Both the position numbers and the translations under genes were made by a program. The notes under the pieces are model-generated. The model was not told the origin of the DNA and did not search any database. It worked only from the letters and a program-made list of their open reading frames with translations. Shown piece by piece: positions 1 through 37,272 of a DNA stretch of 46,885 nt. Positions within the stretch are counted from its first letter, which is position 1, and the number at the start of each line of letters is the position of its first letter. This DNA comes from Acidobacteriaceae bacterium (GTDB taxonomy: Bacteria; Acidobacteriota; Terriglobia; Terriglobales; Acidobacteriaceae): assembly GCA_003138975.1 (NCBI GenBank), contig PLHQ01000059.1:1-46885 (forward strand). Direction: 5' to 3'.

Positions 1-1118
1 GTTCGCGGACGCAACCACATGTCGGCAATGCGCAGGGCCGGAAGCCATAGGTAGTGACGCAGCGGAGCGGCCTGAATGCGCGCCGCCGCAAGCGCGGCGA
101 AACGGGCATCGAGTTCCGGAGTTACGTCATGATCCCGGTTGTAGTCGGCGAAAAGCCGCGCGGTCTCCTGGCGCTGCTGTTCCGAATCAAAGGCACGGCG
201 CGGCAGCTGCGTCACATCAATTTCGGAGCCGGGGACGTTCCAGTAGATCTCCTGCACGGAGGCGTAGTCCGCAATCCAGGTCTTGGTCCAGCGATTGAAT
301 CCCCCCATGACGGGTTCATCGGAATCGTTTGCGTATCGAGGCGCGAGCGGTTCGAAGCGGTGCAGCGTGTGCAAGTTTCGCATTGTCCACGGAACTAGGG
401 GCGCCAGCACAGTGATGGCGAGAATAACTCCGGCGCGCAGGATAGGAAGCACGCGGCGCGCGCGCGTCCTTTGTTTTTGCACAACCATTGCCCTTAGCAA
501 GAGTAGAAACAAATACCCCGCGACGGCAGCAAGCAGAATTCCACCGTCGGGCCGCAACAGAATGCAGGCTCCGATGGAGAGGCCGCACCCTATCCACGTG
601 GTGGTTGATCTTAATGAGTGAGATTCCTGAGAAAAGGACATGAGTCCGCACAAGGCAAAATCCAGCGCCAGCGCGGTGAAGAAGATTTCCAGAGTTTCGG
701 TGAGAACTGCGGCTGAGTAATTGGCGAGGAATGGACAAACCGCAGCGAGCATGAACGCGGCCTTCCCCGCACGCTCGTCGAACAGACGGCGAGCGAGATC
801 CGCGACCAGACAGCACGTGCCCAGATCGAAGACGACTTGGATCAGCAGGACGGCGCGGAAATTGTTCCAGCCAAAGACGGCGAAAATTGCTGCCAGAAAC
901 GCCGGATATCCGGGCAGTCGGGAGAGCGTTGGGATGACATGGCCGGAATCGGTGATGCCGTAGACGCCATACTGCAGCCAGTTCATGGCAATATCGGCGT
1001 ACAGGCGCGAATCGTCGACGATGCCCGGAAAGTGTAGGACGAAGACCAGCCGCAGTGCAACTGCCACCAAGGTCCCCGCCAGAAAGAATCGAGCACCCTT
1101 ACGAAGCAGTTGCAGCAC
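1..1118 (-). CDS. GT39/ArnT-like membrane glycosyltransferase, 3' end off window
   Basis: An uninterrupted minus-strand frame of 372 codons runs off the left edge. The translation is strongly hydrophobic with several membrane segments. Near the N-terminus it has the acidic pair in VDDSRLYADIA, followed after one loop by RLPGYPAFLA, the layout of dolichyl-phosphate-mannose-type (GT39/PMT/ArnT) glycosyltransferases, whose first periplasmic loop carries catalytic acidic residues. Such enzymes move a sugar from a polyprenyl phosphate donor to an extracytoplasmic acceptor. The best start is GTG at 1116-1118: an in-frame stop lies 16 codons upstream, and no ATG occurs before the conserved region. 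The gene is divergent from the polysaccharide fusion gene, so both may serve envelope glycans; that link is inference. The acceptor is unknown. Confidence 0.75.
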   Translation of the reverse strand, partial: MLQLLRKGARFFLAGTLVAVALRLVFVLHFPGIVDDSRLYADIAMNWLQYGVYGITDSGHVIPTLSRLPGYPAFLAAIFAVFGWNNFRAVLLIQVVFDLGTCCLVADLARRLFDERAGKAAFMLAAVCPFLANYSAAVLTETLEIFFTALALDFALCGLMSFSQESHSLRSTTTWIGCGLSIGACILLRPDGGILLAAVAGYLFLLLLRAMVVQKQRTRARRVLPILRAGVILAITVLAPLVPWTMRNLHTLHRFEPLAPRYANDSDEPVMGGFNRWTKTWIADYASVQEIYWNVPGSEIDVTQLPRRAFDSEQQRQETARLFADYNRDHDVTPELDARFAALAAARIQAAPLRHYLWLPALRIADMWLRPR

Positions 1119-1215
1119 GATGAGAATATAGCGCGTTGAGTCAACTTCGCGCCGGGAAAGCGCATCTTAGTTACCAATTACCACTTGCGGGCGCCCTGTG
1201 TAGTCTCCCCAACAA

Positions 1216-1244
1216 TTGACCGCCCGCCGCCTGCAGCATACGAT
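1216..1244 (+). promoter_or_regulatory. Sigma-70-like promoter of the fusion gene
   Basis: TTGACC (1216-1221) and TACGAT (1239-1244) are separated by 17 bases. The expected transcript start near 1251 is only about 10 bases before the ATG at 1261, so the mRNA would have almost no leader. No Shine-Dalgarno is visible, which agrees with that. Confidence 0.45.
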
Positions 1245-1260
1245 GAACGATTAGCTCTCC

Positions 1261-4200
1261 ATGGCCGAACCTGTCTTTTATGATCCGCAACGTGCGCGCT
1301 GGAAGCGCCTGAGACGACTGGCTGACGTTCTAGTCGCGGCGCTCTCCGCGCTGGTTATTTTCTTCGTGTACACCACGTTGCGGGACGAGCGTCTGCCTGA
1401 ACTGCTGTTTTCTCCACAGAAGCGGGCCTTCAAGGCGTTGAAGGAGAATGAGAAGGAAAAGGCCCGCGATCGTCAGAAGAAACTGGCCAACCGCTCTCAT
1501 CGGAAGTCGAAATTGCCAGCGTCTGAGGTCAAACTAAATCAGGAAGAAGGCATTCGGGCGGCGTTCTATGTTCCGTGGGATGCGGCCAGCTTCTCTTCTC
1601 TGCGCGATTTCGCCCACCAGATCGACTTGCTTTATCCCGACTGGCTGCATGTGCTCACTCCCGATGGCCACCTGCAGGGAGTAGACGACCAGACGAACAA
1701 GTTCTTCGACGTCGTGCAGAACAATCGCGCGCGCTCGGTCGACGACCGGGTGATGCCGTTTCTCAAAGCAGAAGACCCCAGCATGGAGGTCTTCCCCATG
1801 GTCAACAACTTCAACGGCACCGATTGGGTGGGGGGCATTACGGGATTCTTGAATGATCCTGAGGCGCGCGCGGCGTTCCGCAAGCAGGTGGGGATATTTC
1901 TTTCTTCCGACCGCTTCCGCGGCTTGATGGTGGACTTCGAAGCGTTCCCCGATTCCGGGCAGCCGGGTTATGTGGCGCTCTTGAACGAACTTTCGGCGGA
2001 CTTGCACGCGCGCGGGATGAAGCTGTATGTCAGCGTGCCTCCGCACGGCAAGGAGTTCGACTACGCCGCAATCTCCGCGCCCGCGGACGGCGTGGTCATC
2101 ATGAATTACGACGAACACTATCCCGGCGCTGCATCGGGCCCGGTCGCGTCGCAGGACTGGTTCGTCGACAATCTTAAGTTCGCCGCAGGCGTGATTCCCA
2201 AAGAGAAGCTGATCTGTGCCATCGCTAATTATGGCTATGACTGGGTGCTCAAACCGAAGAAGGGGAAACTTCCGCCGGATGCCCACGACAGCTCTGTGAG
2301 CGCGCAGGAAGCCTGGCTGGCGGCGCGCGATTCTGATGAGGACGTGATCTTCGACGACGATGCACTGAATCCACACTTCAGTTATCTGGACGAACACAGT
2401 CTGCGCCACGACGTGTGGTTTCTTGATGCGGTCACGGCTCTGAATCATATGCGAGCCGCGCAAACGTTGGGCATCCAGACTTTCGCGTTATGGCGACTGG
2501 GCGGTGAGGATCGTTCGCTTTGGCGCATATGGGACGTTCCTGGCGATGCTGGCGCAGCCGACAAACTCCGCGATGTGCCTCCGGGCCAGGATGTGGACAT
2601 GGAGGGCCAGGGCGAGATCCTTCGCATCGAGGACCGCCCGACTCACGGCACTCGCGACCTGACCATCGACGCAGAGACGAAGCTCATCACCGACGAAAAT
2701 TTTCAGAACCTGCCAAAACCCTTTCGCGTGGGGCGTTATGGATACAGCCCGAACGAGGTTGCGCTCACATTCGACGATGGACCCGATCCCGAATGGACGC
2801 CCAAGATTCTCGATGTGCTCAAACGCGAGCACTCTACGGCCACGTTTTTTCTGATCGGCATCCAGACCGACAAGTTTTCAGGGATAGCCAAACGTATTTA
2901 CAACGAAGGCCATACCATCGGCAACCACACCTTCACGCATCCGGACGTGAGCAATATTTCATCGACCTACATGAAGGTGGAGTTGAATCTCACCGAGCGG
3001 CTTTTTGCCAGCCTGATGGGAATACGCACTACGCTGCTGCGCCCACCCTACGCCATTGACGAAGAGCCCGACACCGCCGATCAGGTGAAGCCGCTCGAGT
3101 TCGCGCAGGACATGGGCTACATCACCGTCGGCAACCGGATTGATCCTAACGATTGGAGCGACAAGCCGCGGCGGCACACTGCCGAAGAGATCTCCGCTTA
3201 CGTACTGGCGCACCTGCCGCCTTGCGGGCCTAACGATCTACGCTGCGGCAACATCGTTCTACTTCATGACGGCGGCGGCAATCGTGCTGAGACAGTTCGT
3301 GCGTTGCCCATGATCATCGATGGCATACGTGCCCGTGGGTACTCGGTGGTCCCGGTGTTTAAATTGTTCGGCAAGACGCGGGCCGACGTGATGTCGCCTT
3401 TGAGCACGGGAGAACGGTGGGCCGCACGCCTGGATGGGCTGGGCTTCTGGCTCTTCGAGGCCGGCATTATCTCAATCACGTGGATTTTCTTTCTCGGCGA
3501 CCTGCTCATGACCGGGCGTCTGCTTTTCATTGGAGCTGCGGCGGTCTACGACCGGTTGCAGGAGAAGATTTTCGGCAAACCCGCGGAAATCGCATCGTAT
3601 AGGCCGAAGGTGGCTGTTCTGATCCCCGCATACAACGAAGAAAAAGTGATTGTGCGTACCATCCGAGCGGCGCTGAACTCCGATTACCGCAACCTGCGCG
3701 TGATCGTGATCGACGACGGTTCGAAGGACCGCACTCTGGGCGTAGCACGGGCCGCATTTGTCGCAGAGGAAAAAGCTGGAAGAGTCCTCATCCTTACGAA
3801 GCCGAACGCCGGCAAGGCTGAGGCGCTCAACTATGGCATCGAGCATATTCAGGATGCCGAACTCTTTGTGGGCATTGACGCCGATACCATCATCGCCGCT
3901 GACGCCATCTCGCGCTTGGTACCGCATTTCATCAATCCTAAGGTCGGTGCCATTGCGGGCAACGCCAAGGTGGGGAATCGTGTGAATCTGTGGACGCGCT
4001 GGCAGGCTCTGGAATACATCACCAGCCAGAATTTCGAGCGTCGTGCTCTGGATGTTCTCGGGGCGGTCAGCGTAGTGCCGGGAGCGATCGGGGCATGGCG
4101 CGTTTCCGCGGTGCGCGAGGCTGGCGGTTACCAGATTGACACCGTTGCCGAAGACGCCGATCTCACCATGGCCCTGTTGCGCCGTGGCTATCGCGTGGAA

Positions 4201-4770
4201 TACGAAGACATGGCTTTGGCTTATACCGAGGCGCCAACCAACGCGAATGGCCTGATGCGTCAGCGTTTCCGCTGGTCGTTTGGAATTCTCCAGGCTGTCT
4301 ACAAGCACAGTGGAGTGTTCGCTCGCAAGGGAGCGCTGGGCTTTGTCGCGCTGCCGAACATCGTGATCTTCCAGATTCTGCTGCCGCTGGTGTCGCCGCT
4401 CATTGACATCATGTTCGCTTTCGGCGCCATCTGGTATTTCATCCAGAAACACTTTCATCCCGATTCCACGGATCCGGCCAGCTTTCACAAACTCGTCGCA
4501 TTCTTCTTCGTGTTCCTGGTGATTGACTTCCTGGCTTCGGCCTTGGCGTTCGCGCTCGAGCGCCGCCGTCCGGACGACAAAGAAGACGTGTGGTTGTTGA
4601 GCCAGGTGTGGTTGCAACGTTTCGCGTACCGTCAATTATTTTCGGTAGTGCTGTTCAGGACGCTGAAGCGTGCGCTGGAAGGCAGGAAATTCGCGTGGGA
4701 TAAGTTAGAGCGCACGGCGGCGGTGAAGCGTGTAGCGTCGGAGGATCGGGAGTCGGTGAACGTGCCGTAG
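1261..4770 (+). CDS. GH18-like / polysaccharide deacetylase / GT2 triple fusion
   Basis: The 1169-residue protein has an N-terminal membrane anchor (about residues 20-40) and three enzymes in a row. Residues ~95-430 are GH18-like and keep the MVDFE core (D225, E227) and MNYDEHY at 281-287. Residues ~495-700 are a NodB-type (CE4) deacetylase with DD at 505-506, metal-binding H556 and H560, RPPY at 594-597 and LLHDG at 667-671. Residues ~730-765 cross the membrane; residues ~780-1010 form a processive GT2 domain with DDGS at 818-821, DAD at 873-875, AED at 963-965 and QRFRW at 1001-1005, followed by further membrane segments. This combines the activities of separate polymer synthases and PgaB-like deacetylase/hydrolases, so one polypeptide could polymerise an N-acetylhexosamine glycan inside and deacetylate or trim it outside. 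Substrate is inferred, not shown. Confidence 0.88.
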   Translation: MAEPVFYDPQRARWKRLRRLADVLVAALSALVIFFVYTTLRDERLPELLFSPQKRAFKALKENEKEKARDRQKKLANRSHRKSKLPASEVKLNQEEGIRAAFYVPWDAASFSSLRDFAHQIDLLYPDWLHVLTPDGHLQGVDDQTNKFFDVVQNNRARSVDDRVMPFLKAEDPSMEVFPMVNNFNGTDWVGGITGFLNDPEARAAFRKQVGIFLSSDRFRGLMVDFEAFPDSGQPGYVALLNELSADLHARGMKLYVSVPPHGKEFDYAAISAPADGVVIMNYDEHYPGAASGPVASQDWFVDNLKFAAGVIPKEKLICAIANYGYDWVLKPKKGKLPPDAHDSSVSAQEAWLAARDSDEDVIFDDDALNPHFSYLDEHSLRHDVWFLDAVTALNHMRAAQTLGIQTFALWRLGGEDRSLWRIWDVPGDAGAADKLRDVPPGQDVDMEGQGEILRIEDRPTHGTRDLTIDAETKLITDENFQNLPKPFRVGRYGYSPNEVALTFDDGPDPEWTPKILDVLKREHSTATFFLIGIQTDKFSGIAKRIYNEGHTIGNHTFTHPDVSNISSTYMKVELNLTERLFASLMGIRTTLLRPPYAIDEEPDTADQVKPLEFAQDMGYITVGNRIDPNDWSDKPRRHTAEEISAYVLAHLPPCGPNDLRCGNIVLLHDGGGNRAETVRALPMIIDGIRARGYSVVPVFKLFGKTRADVMSPLSTGERWAARLDGLGFWLFEAGIISITWIFFLGDLLMTGRLLFIGAAAVYDRLQEKIFGKPAEIASYRPKVAVLIPAYNEEKVIVRTIRAALNSDYRNLRVIVIDDGSKDRTLGVARAAFVAEEKAGRVLILTKPNAGKAEALNYGIEHIQDAELFVGIDADTIIAADAISRLVPHFINPKVGAIAGNAKVGNRVNLWTRWQALEYITSQNFERRALDVLGAVSVVPGAIGAWRVSAVREAGGYQIDTVAEDADLTMALLRRGYRVEYEDMALAYTEAPTNANGLMRQRFRWSFGILQAVYKHSGVFARKGALGFVALPNIVIFQILLPLVSPLIDIMFAFGAIWYFIQKHFHPDSTDPASFHKLVAFFFVFLVIDFLASALAFALERRRPDDKEDVWLLSQVWLQRFAYRQLFSVVLFRTLKRALEGRKFAWDKLERTAAVKRVASEDRESVNVP

Positions 4771-6521: not shown

Positions 6522-8080
<1,559 letters not shown>

Positions 8081-8083
8081 CTC

Positions 8084-9166
8084 TCACATTGCCGCAGCGC
8101 CGCTCACAATTTCGATAATCTCTTTCGTGATCTTCGCCTGCCGCGCCCGGTTCATGGCCAGCGTGAGCGAGTCGATCATGTCGGTGGCATTGTTGGTGGC
8201 GGAATCCATCGCCGTCATGCGCGCGGCGTGCTCGGCAGCGACCGACTCCAGCAGCGCGCGGAAAATCTGGATGGCCACATACTTCGGCAGCAACGCCCGG
8301 AATAACTCCTCTGGAGCCTGCTCGTAAATGTAATCCACTTGTGCTGTTCCGAATTGCAACGCTGCCTGTTCGCCCGCGGACTCAGCACCTCGCATGCCCA
8401 CACCCGCGCTGATCGCCGCTTCCTTGGCCTTTTTCTTTTCTTCTTCCGTCATCTCCTCAGCCAGACGGACAGTCTGCTCACCAATCTGCTCGATGGGAAG
8501 AATCTGTTCCACGATGAGGCGCTGTGCGATCACCGATTTGAATTCGTTGAAAACTATATAGACCGCGTCGATCTCTTCGCGCTGGTAGCGCTCAATCACC
8601 ATCTCCGCCAAAGTGCGCGCTTGTGCAAATTCCAGCTTGCCCAGAACACCAACGTGCTCGCCAGCAATTTGTATCGCTCCGGCCCGCTCCCCGGCCTCAG
8701 CTCGCTTTTCCGTCGATTCATCGGTCTCGGCAAGGCTCTGCGTCTGCACGACCGCGGCAGGATAGCGCCTCCGCAAGAAATCGCGCCCTTTCCGACCAAT
8801 CGCCTCAATGTCGATATTCTTACCTGCCTTGGACTCGAGAAACCGGCTGGCTGCCTTGGTGACGTTAGCGCTGAACGCGCCCGCCAAGCCCTTGTCGCCA
8901 GTGACAACGATCAGCAAAATGTTTTTCTCTTCCCGCTGCGCCAACAAAGGATGCTTCGGTTCACCCGTCTCCGGATCGTAAATCTCTGCCCGCGCCACCA
9001 ACGACTTCAGCACATTCGTCAACATATGCGCATAGGGACGCGCCGCCATGGTGCGATCCTGCGCGCGGCGCAGCTTGGCCGCCGAGACTACTTTCATGGC
9101 TTTGGTAATCTGCCGCGTGTTCACCACGCTGCGGATACGGCGCCGAATGTCGAGAATGTTTGCCAT
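8084..9166 (-). CDS. atpG: ATP synthase F1 subunit gamma, enlarged
   Basis: The rotor subunit gamma is recognised by its conserved N-terminal helix (RRRIRSVVNTRQITKAMKVV) and the C-terminal segment with RMTAMDSATNNATDMI (316-331). It is 360 residues long, whereas most bacterial gamma subunits are about 285-295. The extra length sits in two charged or Ala-rich stretches, about residues 146-178 and 228-275, in the globular part away from the coiled-coil shaft. The second contains a lysine- and glutamate-rich helix (TEEEKKKAKEAA). The Rossmann-like core around VTGDKGLAGAFS (88-99) is intact. The gene lies between atpA and atpD in the leftward operon, separated from atpA by 77 bases of palindromic spacer. 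Confidence 0.96.
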   Translation of the reverse strand: MANILDIRRRIRSVVNTRQITKAMKVVSAAKLRRAQDRTMAARPYAHMLTNVLKSLVARAEIYDPETGEPKHPLLAQREEKNILLIVVTGDKGLAGAFSANVTKAASRFLESKAGKNIDIEAIGRKGRDFLRRRYPAAVVQTQSLAETDESTEKRAEAGERAGAIQIAGEHVGVLGKLEFAQARTLAEMVIERYQREEIDAVYIVFNEFKSVIAQRLIVEQILPIEQIGEQTVRLAEEMTEEEKKKAKEAAISAGVGMRGAESAGEQAALQFGTAQVDYIYEQAPEELFRALLPKYVAIQIFRALLESVAAEHAARMTAMDSATNNATDMIDSLTLAMNRARQAKITKEIIEIVSGAAAM

Positions 9167-9178
9167 TGTACGAGTAAC

Positions 9179-9225
9179 GAGTACCGAGTACTGAGTTCCG
9201 AGTTTGACTGTACCGCTCGGTACTC
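9179..9225. repeat. Inverted repeat in the atpA-atpG spacer
   Basis: GAGTACCGAG (9179-9188) and CTCGGTACTC (9216-9225) are perfect inverted copies. The rest of the 77-base spacer is made of imperfect variants of the same word (GAGTAACGAG, GAGTACTGAG, GGGACTCG), so several alternative hairpins are possible. Confidence 0.6.
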
Positions 9226-9243
9226 GGCACTAGGGACTCGATA

Positions 9244-10833
<1,590 letters not shown>

Positions 10834-36001: not shown

Positions 36002-37048
36002 CTAACCCCCGATATGCACCATGGTCCTCGACGCCGGCACGAAATCCGGTTCGCCGATGTGATGGCGTTCTTCTTTTTTCTGCACTACTCCTCGAATGAA
36101 CTCGGCCAACTCTTCGTCACTGGCACCGCGGCGCATCTGCGCGTGCAGGTCGTGGTCCCACACCGAGAACAGGCATGTCCGGATCTTCCCGTCGCTAGTG
36201 ATGCGGATGCGGCTGCAGTGTCCGCAGAAAGGATGCGACACCGGCGCGATGATGCCAATTTCGCCAACACCGTCGTCGAAACGGTAGCGGCGGGCAGTCT
36301 CCGATCGCGCCCGCCTAATCTCGACCAGCGGGCGATACTCCTCCATGCGCACCAGGATTTCGTCGAGTGTGACCACCGTCTCCGGCGACCACGTGCGCCC
36401 TTCTTCCAGCGGCATGAATTCGATGAAGCGCACGGTAACGCCTTCTTCGCGCGCGAACATGCCGAAGGGAATGATCTGATCTTCATTGAAGCCGCGCATG
36501 AGCACGCAGTTCACTTTCAGCGGCCACAACCCAGCGCGGCGCGCGGCGCGGATGCCGGCGAGCACGTGGTCGTATCCATTGGGTACGCGCGTGATGCGCG
36601 CGAACCGGTCGGGATCGACCGCGTCCATGGAAACTGTGACGCGGGTCAGGCCGGCATCTTTCAGGGGCTGCGCGAGATCGCCGAGAAGATGGCCGTTCGT
36701 CGTGAGCGCGATGTCCAGCGGATCGCCGCCGTTCCTACTAGTAGGCGTGCGCAGTTGGGCCAACTCACAGACGAATCCCACAACTCCGTTGCGCAGCAGC
36801 GGTTCGCCGCCAGTCAGACGAACCTTGGTGATCCCCATCCCGACCAGCACGCGCGTCATCCTTAGATAATCAGCAAATGGCAGATCGCCGTAGAGTGCTC
36901 CTTCATTTCCCGTGCGGCAATACACACACTTGTAATTGCAGCGGTCGGTGATGGAGATCCGCAGATCAGTGATCGGACGGCCGAATTTGTCGGCGAGAAG
37001 CACAGTAGTTGACTTCTGCGGAAAGGAAAAACCAACAGGCGCGACCAT
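36002..37048 (-). CDS. moaA: GTP 3',8-cyclase MoaA
   Basis: A radical-SAM enzyme that converts GTP to 3',8-cyclo-GTP, the first step of molybdopterin synthesis. The 348-residue protein has DKFGRPITDLRISITDRC with the SAM cluster motif CNYKCVYC, TGGEPLLR, and the C-terminal second 4Fe-4S ligands CGHCSRIRITSDGKIRTC. The usual terminal GG is present (HIGG). ATG 37046-37048 gives a family-like N-terminus; the frame continues 50 codons upstream to a GTG without conservation. No other moa, moe or mob gene is in the window, so the pathway is dispersed. A 140-base gap downstream holds only a hairpin, CTGCCGA/TCGGCAG (35894-35917). Confidence 0.95.
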   Translation of the reverse strand: MVAPVGFSFPQKSTTVLLADKFGRPITDLRISITDRCNYKCVYCRTGNEGALYGDLPFADYLRMTRVLVGMGITKVRLTGGEPLLRNGVVGFVCELAQLRTPTSRNGGDPLDIALTTNGHLLGDLAQPLKDAGLTRVTVSMDAVDPDRFARITRVPNGYDHVLAGIRAARRAGLWPLKVNCVLMRGFNEDQIIPFGMFAREEGVTVRFIEFMPLEEGRTWSPETVVTLDEILVRMEEYRPLVEIRRARSETARRYRFDDGVGEIGIIAPVSHPFCGHCSRIRITSDGKIRTCLFSVWDHDLHAQMRRGASDEELAEFIRGVVQKKEERHHIGEPDFVPASRTMVHIGG

Positions 37049-37272
37049 CCCGGCGGCTGTTTCCTTTCCAATGCGCTCCTCACGGAGCGCGGGAGGCGCC
37101 AGCGTTTCCACTAGCACCCTCGGGAAAGTGTGGGGCAGATACTCCTTTAACAAGCTCGGTACACGCCTTGTCCGCCCGACTCCTTCCCGCGCCGCCACGG
37201 CCTGGGTATGCCCGAAGGCCAGGACGGTCAGAAACTTGTTTCATTATAGAGCTTGGGGAGAGTGCAAAGGTT

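Follow-up and report, generated by a model that had tools for sequence, protein, structure and literature searches.

A GH18-CE4-GT2 fusion protein of Acidobacteriaceae: a predicted synthase for an amino-sugar polymer and its putative GT-C partner

Introduction

Streptomyces MatB is a fusion of a family 4 carbohydrate esterase (CE4) with a family 2 glycosyltransferase (GT2), and according to the portions of two reports drawn on here its loss abolishes staining for poly-N-acetylglucosamine (PNAG) (PMC5972031; PMC4391728); a deletion, an antibody and dispersin B served to establish this requirement (PMC5972031). Glycosyltransferase domains fused to PgaB-like deacetylases are also described, in the relevant excerpt of another study, from operons without detectable pgaA and pgaD (PMC7112194). 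Here we analyse a three-domain protein in which a family 18 glycoside hydrolase (GH18), a CE4 deacetylase and a GT2 synthase share one chain. Its gene lies on contig PLHQ01000059.1 of an Acidobacteriaceae bacterium (GCA_003138975.1); all 46,885 nucleotides of this stretch are referred to below as the window. An earlier, sequence-only reading of the same DNA took the synthase and the deacetylase/hydrolase of PNAG systems to be separate proteins, a generalisation that the MatB and PgaB-like fusions contradict.

The GH18-CE4-GT2 architecture is not new. It is already in two genome papers, which, in the passages concerned, give it a table entry for Acetivibrio cellulolyticus (PMC3413522) and name the same three modules in one sentence on Sphingobacterium multivorum w15 (PMC7065263). 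In open-licence PubMed Central papers, judged mostly by their listings, we found no study of the function or product of the fusion. We propose that it is probably a membrane synthase that makes, exports, deacetylates and, in most relatives, trims an amino-sugar polymer, and that a GT-C glycosyltransferase encoded beside it then modifies the product.

Results

The window is one contig of a 5.45-Mb draft genome, and relatives with 81-93% identity come from Candidatus Sulfotelmatobacter and other Acidobacteriaceae or Acidobacteria metagenome assemblies. As the sequence-only reading had it, the GH18, deacetylase and processive GT2 domains sit on a single polypeptide: the open reading frame (Table 1) runs from an ATG with zero internal stops, and three Pfam domains exceed their cut-offs, namely Glyco_hydro_18 at residues 184-413 (44.4 bits, cut-off 29.6), Polysacc_deac_1 at residues 497-598 (102.5 bits, cut-off 23.1) and GT2 models across residues 782-1057 (best 109.9 bits, cut-off 27). 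In none of the other five frames of this stretch does an open run exceed 387 codons, the length reached in antisense frame 1 (10 stops), and the open runs of the remaining four are all shorter than 184 codons. A frame or assembly artefact was ruled out because the fusion also reads as a single open frame in 45 aligned relatives and is present in every one of 31 genomes of the family, one of them a single-contig assembly.

The catalytic motifs named in the earlier reading all stand at the residue numbers given there: D225/E227 in GH18, D505-D506, H556 and H560 in CE4, and DDGS (818-821), DAD (873-875), ED (964-965) and QRFRW (1001-1005) in GT2. Their conservation was followed in an alignment of 46 fusions, the window included, with identity down to 36%, and in a second alignment of 67, comprising the window and 66 of 80 loci, with truncated, gap-bearing and near-identical loci and a few others left out. 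Across the 46 fusions D505, D506, H556, H560, R594, P596, D628, D631 and H669 of CE4 are invariant, as are D818, D819, D873, D875, E964, D965, Q1001, R1004 and W1005 of GT2; P595 (42/46) and W632 (45/46) are not fully so. The 67-fusion set leaves the same columns invariant except for one D506G and one D818N, so that D505, H556 and H560 are kept in 46/46 and 67/67 and D506 in 46/46 and 66/67. Because these columns are near-invariant over the 46 aligned fusions, we judge the motifs not to be chance occurrences. The CE4 domain carries a D-H-H metal site, which we take to be D506, H556 and H560, together with what are presumably the catalytic aspartate, the RPPY motif and the conserved histidine of such deacetylases. 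The GT2 domain combines DDG, DxD, ED and QxxRW with the membrane helices of a synthase, as processive membrane GT2 enzymes do. The GH18 signature is DxxDxDxE, of which the fusion keeps only the last aspartate and the glutamate, with M223 at the middle aspartate; the same short D-x-E form is found in the aligned SleL/YaaH/YdhD-type enzymes. The window protein has this catalytic D-x-E within a TIM barrel, as expected of a GH18 glycosidase, and across the two alignments E227 is retained in 44/46 and 60/67 fusions and D225 in 45/46 and 64/67.

An AlphaFold2 model of the fusion, built on 67 rows, has a mean predicted local distance difference test (pLDDT) score of 82.6 and a predicted template modelling (pTM) score of 0.59, so that its individual domains are more trustworthy than their mutual placement. 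Membrane helices are predicted near residues 20-40, 727-757, 1034-1056 and 1078-1096, and in the model a continuous helix (716-766) joins CE4 to GT2. Averaged over 116 aligned fusions, the N-terminus carries 6.75 lysine and arginine residues per 20, and the loop at 1060-1076 is low in these residues (1.0) and higher in aspartate and glutamate (2.4). These charges favour a model with the N-terminus inside, GH18-CE4 outside and GT2 inside. The predicted topology and the structure model thereby agree with the earlier proposal that GH18 and the deacetylase face outwards and GT2 inwards; an arrangement with GT2 and the deacetylase on the same side was looked for by prediction and not found.

In structure comparisons the GH18 barrel matched the Chromobacterium violaceum chitinase 5jh8 (Z 33.9, root-mean-square deviation (rmsd) 2.2, 305 residues) and SleL (Z 33.2), and GT2 with its helices matched viral hyaluronan synthase (Z 29.3, rmsd 2.9, 376 residues); the match list for the full model consists mostly of GH18 rows, and the absence of other folds from it is uninformative. 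The CE4 domain aligns along its whole length with the Bacillus cereus peptidoglycan deacetylase Bc1960 at 35% identity. Since peptidoglycan deacetylases and cortex-lytic enzymes are among the closest structural matches of CE4 and GH18, and two sphingomonad copies of the fusion adjoin VirJ and MprF-type envelope genes, one could suppose that the protein acts on the cell wall, its CE4 and GH18 remodelling peptidoglycan and its GT2 making a wall-linked glycan. We consider this improbable, given that with a processive GT2 embedded in the membrane on the same chain the obvious substrate is what that GT2 makes, and given the MatB precedent as set out in the part of that report used here (PMC5972031).

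To place the fusion in its phylum, the whole protein was searched against 297 genomes drawn across the Acidobacteriota. It was found in 52, comprising 31/31 of its own family, where one carrier matched in two pieces, and 21/266 others, where one match was cut (442-1155). These scans score few candidates per genome (two for the fusion, up to five for GT-C, below), so absences may be misses. At least part of the fusion is present in 17 of 19 drafts of the window's genus and in 46 of the 48 genomes examined from its family overall, and the second family of the order has it in 2/12. The earlier statement that such fusions exist in Acidobacteriota is correct but too narrow, as relatives also occur in Deinococcota, Pseudomonadota and Bacteroidota, and matches over at least 94% of the query length come from plasmids of Deinococcus, Sphingobium, Sphingomonas, Novosphingobium, Prevotella and Sulfitobacter. 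Pfam recognises GH18, CE4 and GT2 in the scanned Deinococcus, Prevotella and Sphingomonas copies, and CE4 and GT2 in the scanned Sulfitobacter copy, whose diverged GH18 is seen by BLAST (23.6% identity, 86 bits). In a Kocuria protein Pfam recognises CE4 and GT2 alone, and its gene adjoins one for an annotated chitinase with a GH18 score below the cut-off (22.9 vs 29.6 bits); for a Streptomyces CE4-GT2 protein BLAST gave no GH18 match. A search that reached close relatives only found no close viral relative of the fusion.

Individual loci have features of their own. On a plasmid of Sulfitobacter sp. OXR-159 (L167 7956-11369) the fusion is annotated as two genes, a deacetylase part and a glycosyltransferase part, which may reflect either a split gene or a break in the frame. 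In Sulfitobacter sp. DSM 110093 (L173 11150-13666), also on a plasmid, a DUF3131 gene overlaps the stop codon of the fusion, and the two may therefore be co-translated. On a Deinococcus plasmid (L165 11441-12976) the next gene downstream of the fusion encodes a diguanylate cyclase, a hint of control by cyclic di-GMP, and two sphingomonad copies (L174 11357-14702; L166 7044-16817) lie near VirJ/AcvB and MprF-type (lysyl-phosphatidylglycerol) genes, which hints at a surface-charge context. At loci L186 and L187, separate CE4 and GH18 matches are found close together outside any fusion, possibly a two-gene counterpart of the outer half of the protein. Contigs labelled Rhodanobacteraceae (L111) and Verrucomicrobia (L155) have fusions that group within the Acidobacteriaceae clade and are probably misassigned metagenome bins.

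The catalytic glutamate of GH18 has been lost in one lineage. In a FastTree phylogeny of 116 fusions, from which columns round the GH18 active site were excluded, E227 is kept in 107 proteins and is glutamine in nine, which form one clade (support 100) accounted for by a single E-to-Q change. This Granulicella/Bryocella clade, which includes Bryocella elongata DSM 22489 and Granulicella paludicola DSM 22464, retains intact CE4 and GT2 sites. One further fusion (L143) has E227 and has lost D225. An E-to-Q change is also found in PDB entry 3alg, the E115Q mutant of a class V chitinase in complex with NAG4, and that mutant is reportedly inactive. With glutamine at 227 and the two other active sites preserved, GH18 cutting seems, on the evidence of these alignments, to be dispensable for the fusion.

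How the rest of the domain has fared in this clade bears on what GH18 does in general. Of 34 GH18 positions that are at least 95% conserved in the remaining Acidobacteriota rows, seven vary in the clade (D225, E227, M281, D284, W300, Y324 and W411), several of them at what we take to be active-site positions, and the other 27 are unchanged; the pairwise GH18/GT2 divergence ratio is 2.59 in the clade against 2.40 in 14 of 16 sister-group rows. The single substitution and the similar pace of divergence, with seven near-invariant positions varying, could mean that GH18 is mainly a polymer-binding or structural module throughout the family, with hydrolysis secondary. However, retention of E227 in the other 107 proteins, from several phyla, points to selected catalysis elsewhere, and W300 and W411 are each lost in two of the nine, so that binding is not obviously kept; we therefore regard this family-wide view as unlikely. 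In the Bryocella elongata genome the sole GH18 match is the fusion, with D225 and E227 both replaced, and the portion of a published table covering this species gives it no GH18 chitinase (PMC6252331). Chitin breakdown does not necessarily follow from a GH18 match in a genome of this kind.

Divergent from the fusion is a GT-C gene truncated where the contig begins (about 480 amino acids, 372 present), whose product matches Pfam PMT_2 at 51.7 bits (cut-off 26.1). A full-length relative (locus L085) was modelled with a GT-C fold (pLDDT 90.5, pTM 0.91) that resembles ArnT 5f15 (Z 25.6, 317 residues) and, also at Z 25.6, an archaeal oligosaccharyltransferase; PMT_2 family membership and fold together mark the gene as a GT-C transferase. 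Searched against solved structures, the GT-C profile matched no chain at E <= 0.01. Gene order was examined at 94 loci, dereplicated at 85% from 121. At least 50% identity to the window protein is found at 72 of them, the window included, and where these have at least 300 bp upstream (69 loci) the GT-C gene is divergent, head-to-head, within 400 bp in 67. The 22 more distant loci, 21 of them with room, have it divergent in three and downstream on the same strand in two.

Co-occurrence of the two genes extends across the phylum. At E <= 1e-60 a GT-C profile built from close relatives only was found in 38/52 genomes with the fusion (30/31 in the window's own family, 8/21 among other carriers) and in 0/245 without it, and relaxing the threshold to E <= 1e-30 brings in a single genome without the fusion (112 bits). 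As a control, a PMT_2 paralogue of the same genome, used as a single sequence and not as a profile, was found at E <= 1e-30 in 92 genomes, 36/52 with the fusion and 56/245 without. Fisher's test of GT-C against the fusion gives 1e-36 overall and 4e-10 outside the window's family, values that ignore shared ancestry. Plasmid copies of GT-C were searched for and none were found. Part of the family also shares other neighbours of the fusion (39, 35 and 35 of 94 loci), as it would if GT-C were a bystander held by conserved gene order. That explanation has little probability in our view: in five genomes of family f5 GT-C is on another contig than the fusion (these contigs being short), so that the link is not only one of adjacency; fusion-less genomes lack the gene at the strict threshold; and the paralogue control behaves differently. 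GT-C looks like a dedicated partner of the fusion, and the one-way dependence, with GT-C not seen without the fusion and the fusion often without GT-C, suggests that it acts on the product of the synthase.

The nearest named references for the window protein are MatB-like CE4-GT2 fusions, represented in our BLAST comparison by Kocuria and Streptomyces plasmid proteins, MatB itself not being included. The GT2 domain scored 236 and 219 bits against these two, 137 against PgaC and 104 against NodC, and the CE4 domain 154 against the Sulfitobacter copy, 150 against the Streptomyces fusion, 114 against Kocuria and 98 against NodB. The PgaC/IcaA model TIGR03937 is the best-scoring for the GT2 domain (180.4 bits over model positions 16-394 of 407). 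A pgaB-pgaC fusion was considered and rejected, the CE4 being unlike that of PgaB and GH18 standing in place of GHL13. Pfam shows GH18 and no GHL13 in the fusion, GHL13 has no match in the window's genome and none over the cut-off in 31 genomes (the E. coli control was positive), and the best BLASTP alignment to E. coli PgaB covers 38 columns round one motif at E 0.14.

This unlikeness to PgaB bears on the nature of the polymer. It is possible, if somewhat doubtful, that the product is a chitin- or chitosan-like beta-1,4 polymer or oligomer made by a NodB-NodC-like path on one chain, with a GH18 chitinase setting its length. The GH18 is chitinase/SleL-like in fold and sequence, the CE4 is of NodB/PgdA and not PgaB type, the CE4-GT2 order is that of nodB-nodC, and GT2 exceeds the cut-off for Pfam Chitin_synth_2 (37.3 bits, cut-off 27). 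However, NodC is more distant from the GT2 than are PgaC and MatB-like sequences, and MatB, which also has a PgdA/NodB-type CE4, is required for PNAG in the sections of the report used (PMC5972031). Since GT2 and MatB point to a beta-1,6, PNAG-like linkage and GH18 to a beta-1,4, chitin-like one, we hold the former to be a little more likely.

Coordinates are collected in Table 1. A conserved F-(Y/F)-D-P...R-W stretch precedes the first membrane helix of the fusion. The shared intergenic region contains one promoter-like consensus match at 1216-1244 (+), where 0.2 are expected in shuffled sequence, and this is a candidate only. Rfam gave no riboswitch for the fusion in the window, its sole match lying elsewhere: a molybdenum/tungsten cofactor riboswitch (RF01055) at 37045-37245 (-), with 45.2 bits (gathering 36). 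ATP-synthase-like genes occupy 6522-10776 (-), where two ATP-synt_ab proteins (480 and 510 amino acids) flank an ATP-synt protein of 360 amino acids; open reading frames of 480 and 360 amino acids are also near the fusion in several relatives.

Table 1. Features of the fusion locus in the window
Feature	Position	Strand	Basis
GH18-CE4-GT2 fusion protein, 1169 aa	1261..4770	+	open reading frame and Pfam domains
First membrane helix, residues 20-40, predicted N-terminus inside	1318..1380	+	model, charges, alignment
GH18 barrel, SleL/YaaH type, residues 96-430, predicted outside	1546..2550	+	Pfam, structure comparison
GH18 catalytic D225 and E227	1933-1941	+	within GH18 barrel
CE4 (NodB/PgdA-type) deacetylase, residues 495-705, predicted outside	2743..3375	+	Pfam, structure comparison
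Long helix 716-766 with membrane crossing predicted to return the chain inside	3406..3558	+	structure model, charges
Processive GT2 catalytic domain, residues 782-1010, predicted inside; DDGS, DAD, ED, QRFRW	3604..4290	+	
C-terminal membrane helices, residues 1024-1099	4330..4557	+	structure model, charges
Divergent GT-C (PMT_2, ArnT-like fold) glycosyltransferase, proposed partner	3..1118	-	
Shared divergent intergenic region between GT-C and fusion	1119..1260	.	

Discussion

We propose the following model. The fusion would correspond to a CE4-GT2 synthase of the MatB type that carries an additional GH18 at the N-terminal side, outside the cell. GT2 would polymerise an N-acetyl amino sugar at the inner face of the membrane, the donor most likely being UDP-N-acetylglucosamine, and the chain would cross the inner membrane through the synthase's own helices. 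Outside, the CE4 of the same polypeptide would deacetylate the emerging chain, and the SleL-type GH18 would bind it and, in most relatives, cut it for trimming or release; both reactions are placed where the inner membrane faces outwards. A GT-C using a polyprenyl-phosphate sugar would then, in most close relatives, act on the chain or on a molecule linked to it. Computation shows the domains, their intact residues, the predicted topology, conservation across the family, a single loss of the GH18 glutamate and the co-occurrence of GT-C with the fusion. The donor sugar, the linkage, the order of the steps, the donor and acceptor of GT-C and export across the outer membrane are what we infer in this model. 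The earlier description of a self-contained machine that makes, exports and modifies an amino-sugar polymer stands as far as prediction goes for the function; "self-contained" is doubtful, since GT-C tracks the fusion in most carriers and PgaA has no match over its cut-off in 31 genomes.

A number of observations weigh against this interpretation, or are unclear in their bearing on it. The enzymes related to GH18 and CE4 mostly have beta-1,4 chains as substrates, which argues against PNAG. For CE4 the same substrate preference is given in the part of the MatB literature used here (PMC5972031). The fusion misses the PgaC_IcaA equivalog cut-off of TIGR03937 (422.3 bits), as does the Kocuria CE4-GT2 fusion at 205.3 bits. 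Stand-alone GT2s of other Acidobacteriota come close to the MatB-like proteins in score, with 193-212 bits for four of them and a lower 110-149 for three, and among stand-alone CE4s three (120-127 bits) outscore the 114 of Kocuria; "MatB-like" therefore rests on architecture as much as on similarity. GT-C is absent from 14 of the 52 fusion genomes, and its association with the fusion is weak within family f5 (Fisher 0.048) and within family f22 (0.18). The fusion has no match in two drafts from the window's genus that are 86% and 72% complete. The GT2 tree requires two changes to account for the GH18-bearing group and puts the Streptomyces CE4-GT2 protein next to sphingomonad fusions (87/77), so that GH18 may have been gained or lost more than once; its deep branches are long and unresolved. 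PgaA gave no match over the cut-off in 31 genomes, only weak partial ones (1/14 control genomes was positive), which leaves passage through the outer membrane unexplained. Finally, and against a bulk role, the extracellular polysaccharide of two Granulicella strains, which may or may not carry the fusion, is reported, in the data seen from that study, to consist mainly of mannose, glucose, galactose and xylose without acetate groups (PMC5259719); the sugars given were neutral and acid ones, and the standards held no amino sugar (PMC5259719).

Going further, we tentatively put forward the fusion and GT-C as an undescribed two-gene system for a partly deacetylated, glycosylated (branched or capped) surface amino-sugar polymer, in which the GH18 of the Granulicella/Bryocella clade serves as a non-catalytic guide. 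We would give this fuller picture somewhat less than an even chance. Its reasoning is that the synthase can lack GT-C while the sampled GT-C never lacks the synthase, so that the polymer would be the GT-C acceptor. Among titles and abstract openings in open-licence PubMed Central we found no prior report of the inactive GH18 of the fusion or of the GT-C link; in that literature, as far as those portions reach, the E227Q loss and the apparent GT-C partner are unreported.

Acidobacteriota are among the commonest soil bacteria, and the fusion is widespread in the window's family. It offers a compact, one-chain model for the coupling of amino-sugar polymer synthesis, export, deacetylation and cutting, and the Q227 clade provides a natural loss of one of these activities that can be used for comparison.

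Among described systems, the MatB type is the most similar: its Kocuria and Streptomyces representatives are nearer by BLAST bits than PgaC or NodC, and it shares with the predicted topology of the fusion an outer CE4, a membrane helix and an inner PgaC-like GT2 on a single chain. Unlike the fusion, MatB, in the portions of its reports consulted, is without GH18, works with MatA, has an IcaC-like gene adjacent and belongs to an organism with no outer membrane. The Acetivibrio and Sphingobacterium entries have the same modules and, in the passages concerned, are listed without function, partner or conservation; the Sphingobacterium multivorum w15 text gives the order CE4-GH18-GT2, in contrast to the GH18-CE4-GT2 of the window (PMC7065263). 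E. coli PgaB and PgaC resemble the fusion in placing a deacetylase and a hydrolase-type domain outside and a PgaC-like GT2 inside, whereas the pgaABCD products are separate proteins, with a PgaB-type CE4 and a hydrolase of the GHL13 and not the GH18 kind. Rhizobial NodB-NodC share the order CE4 then GT2, and differ in being separate proteins of weaker similarity (98 and 104 bits) without GH18. The partner gene, for its part, shares its predicted fold with ArnT and other GT-C transferases, with no sequence match to solved chains.

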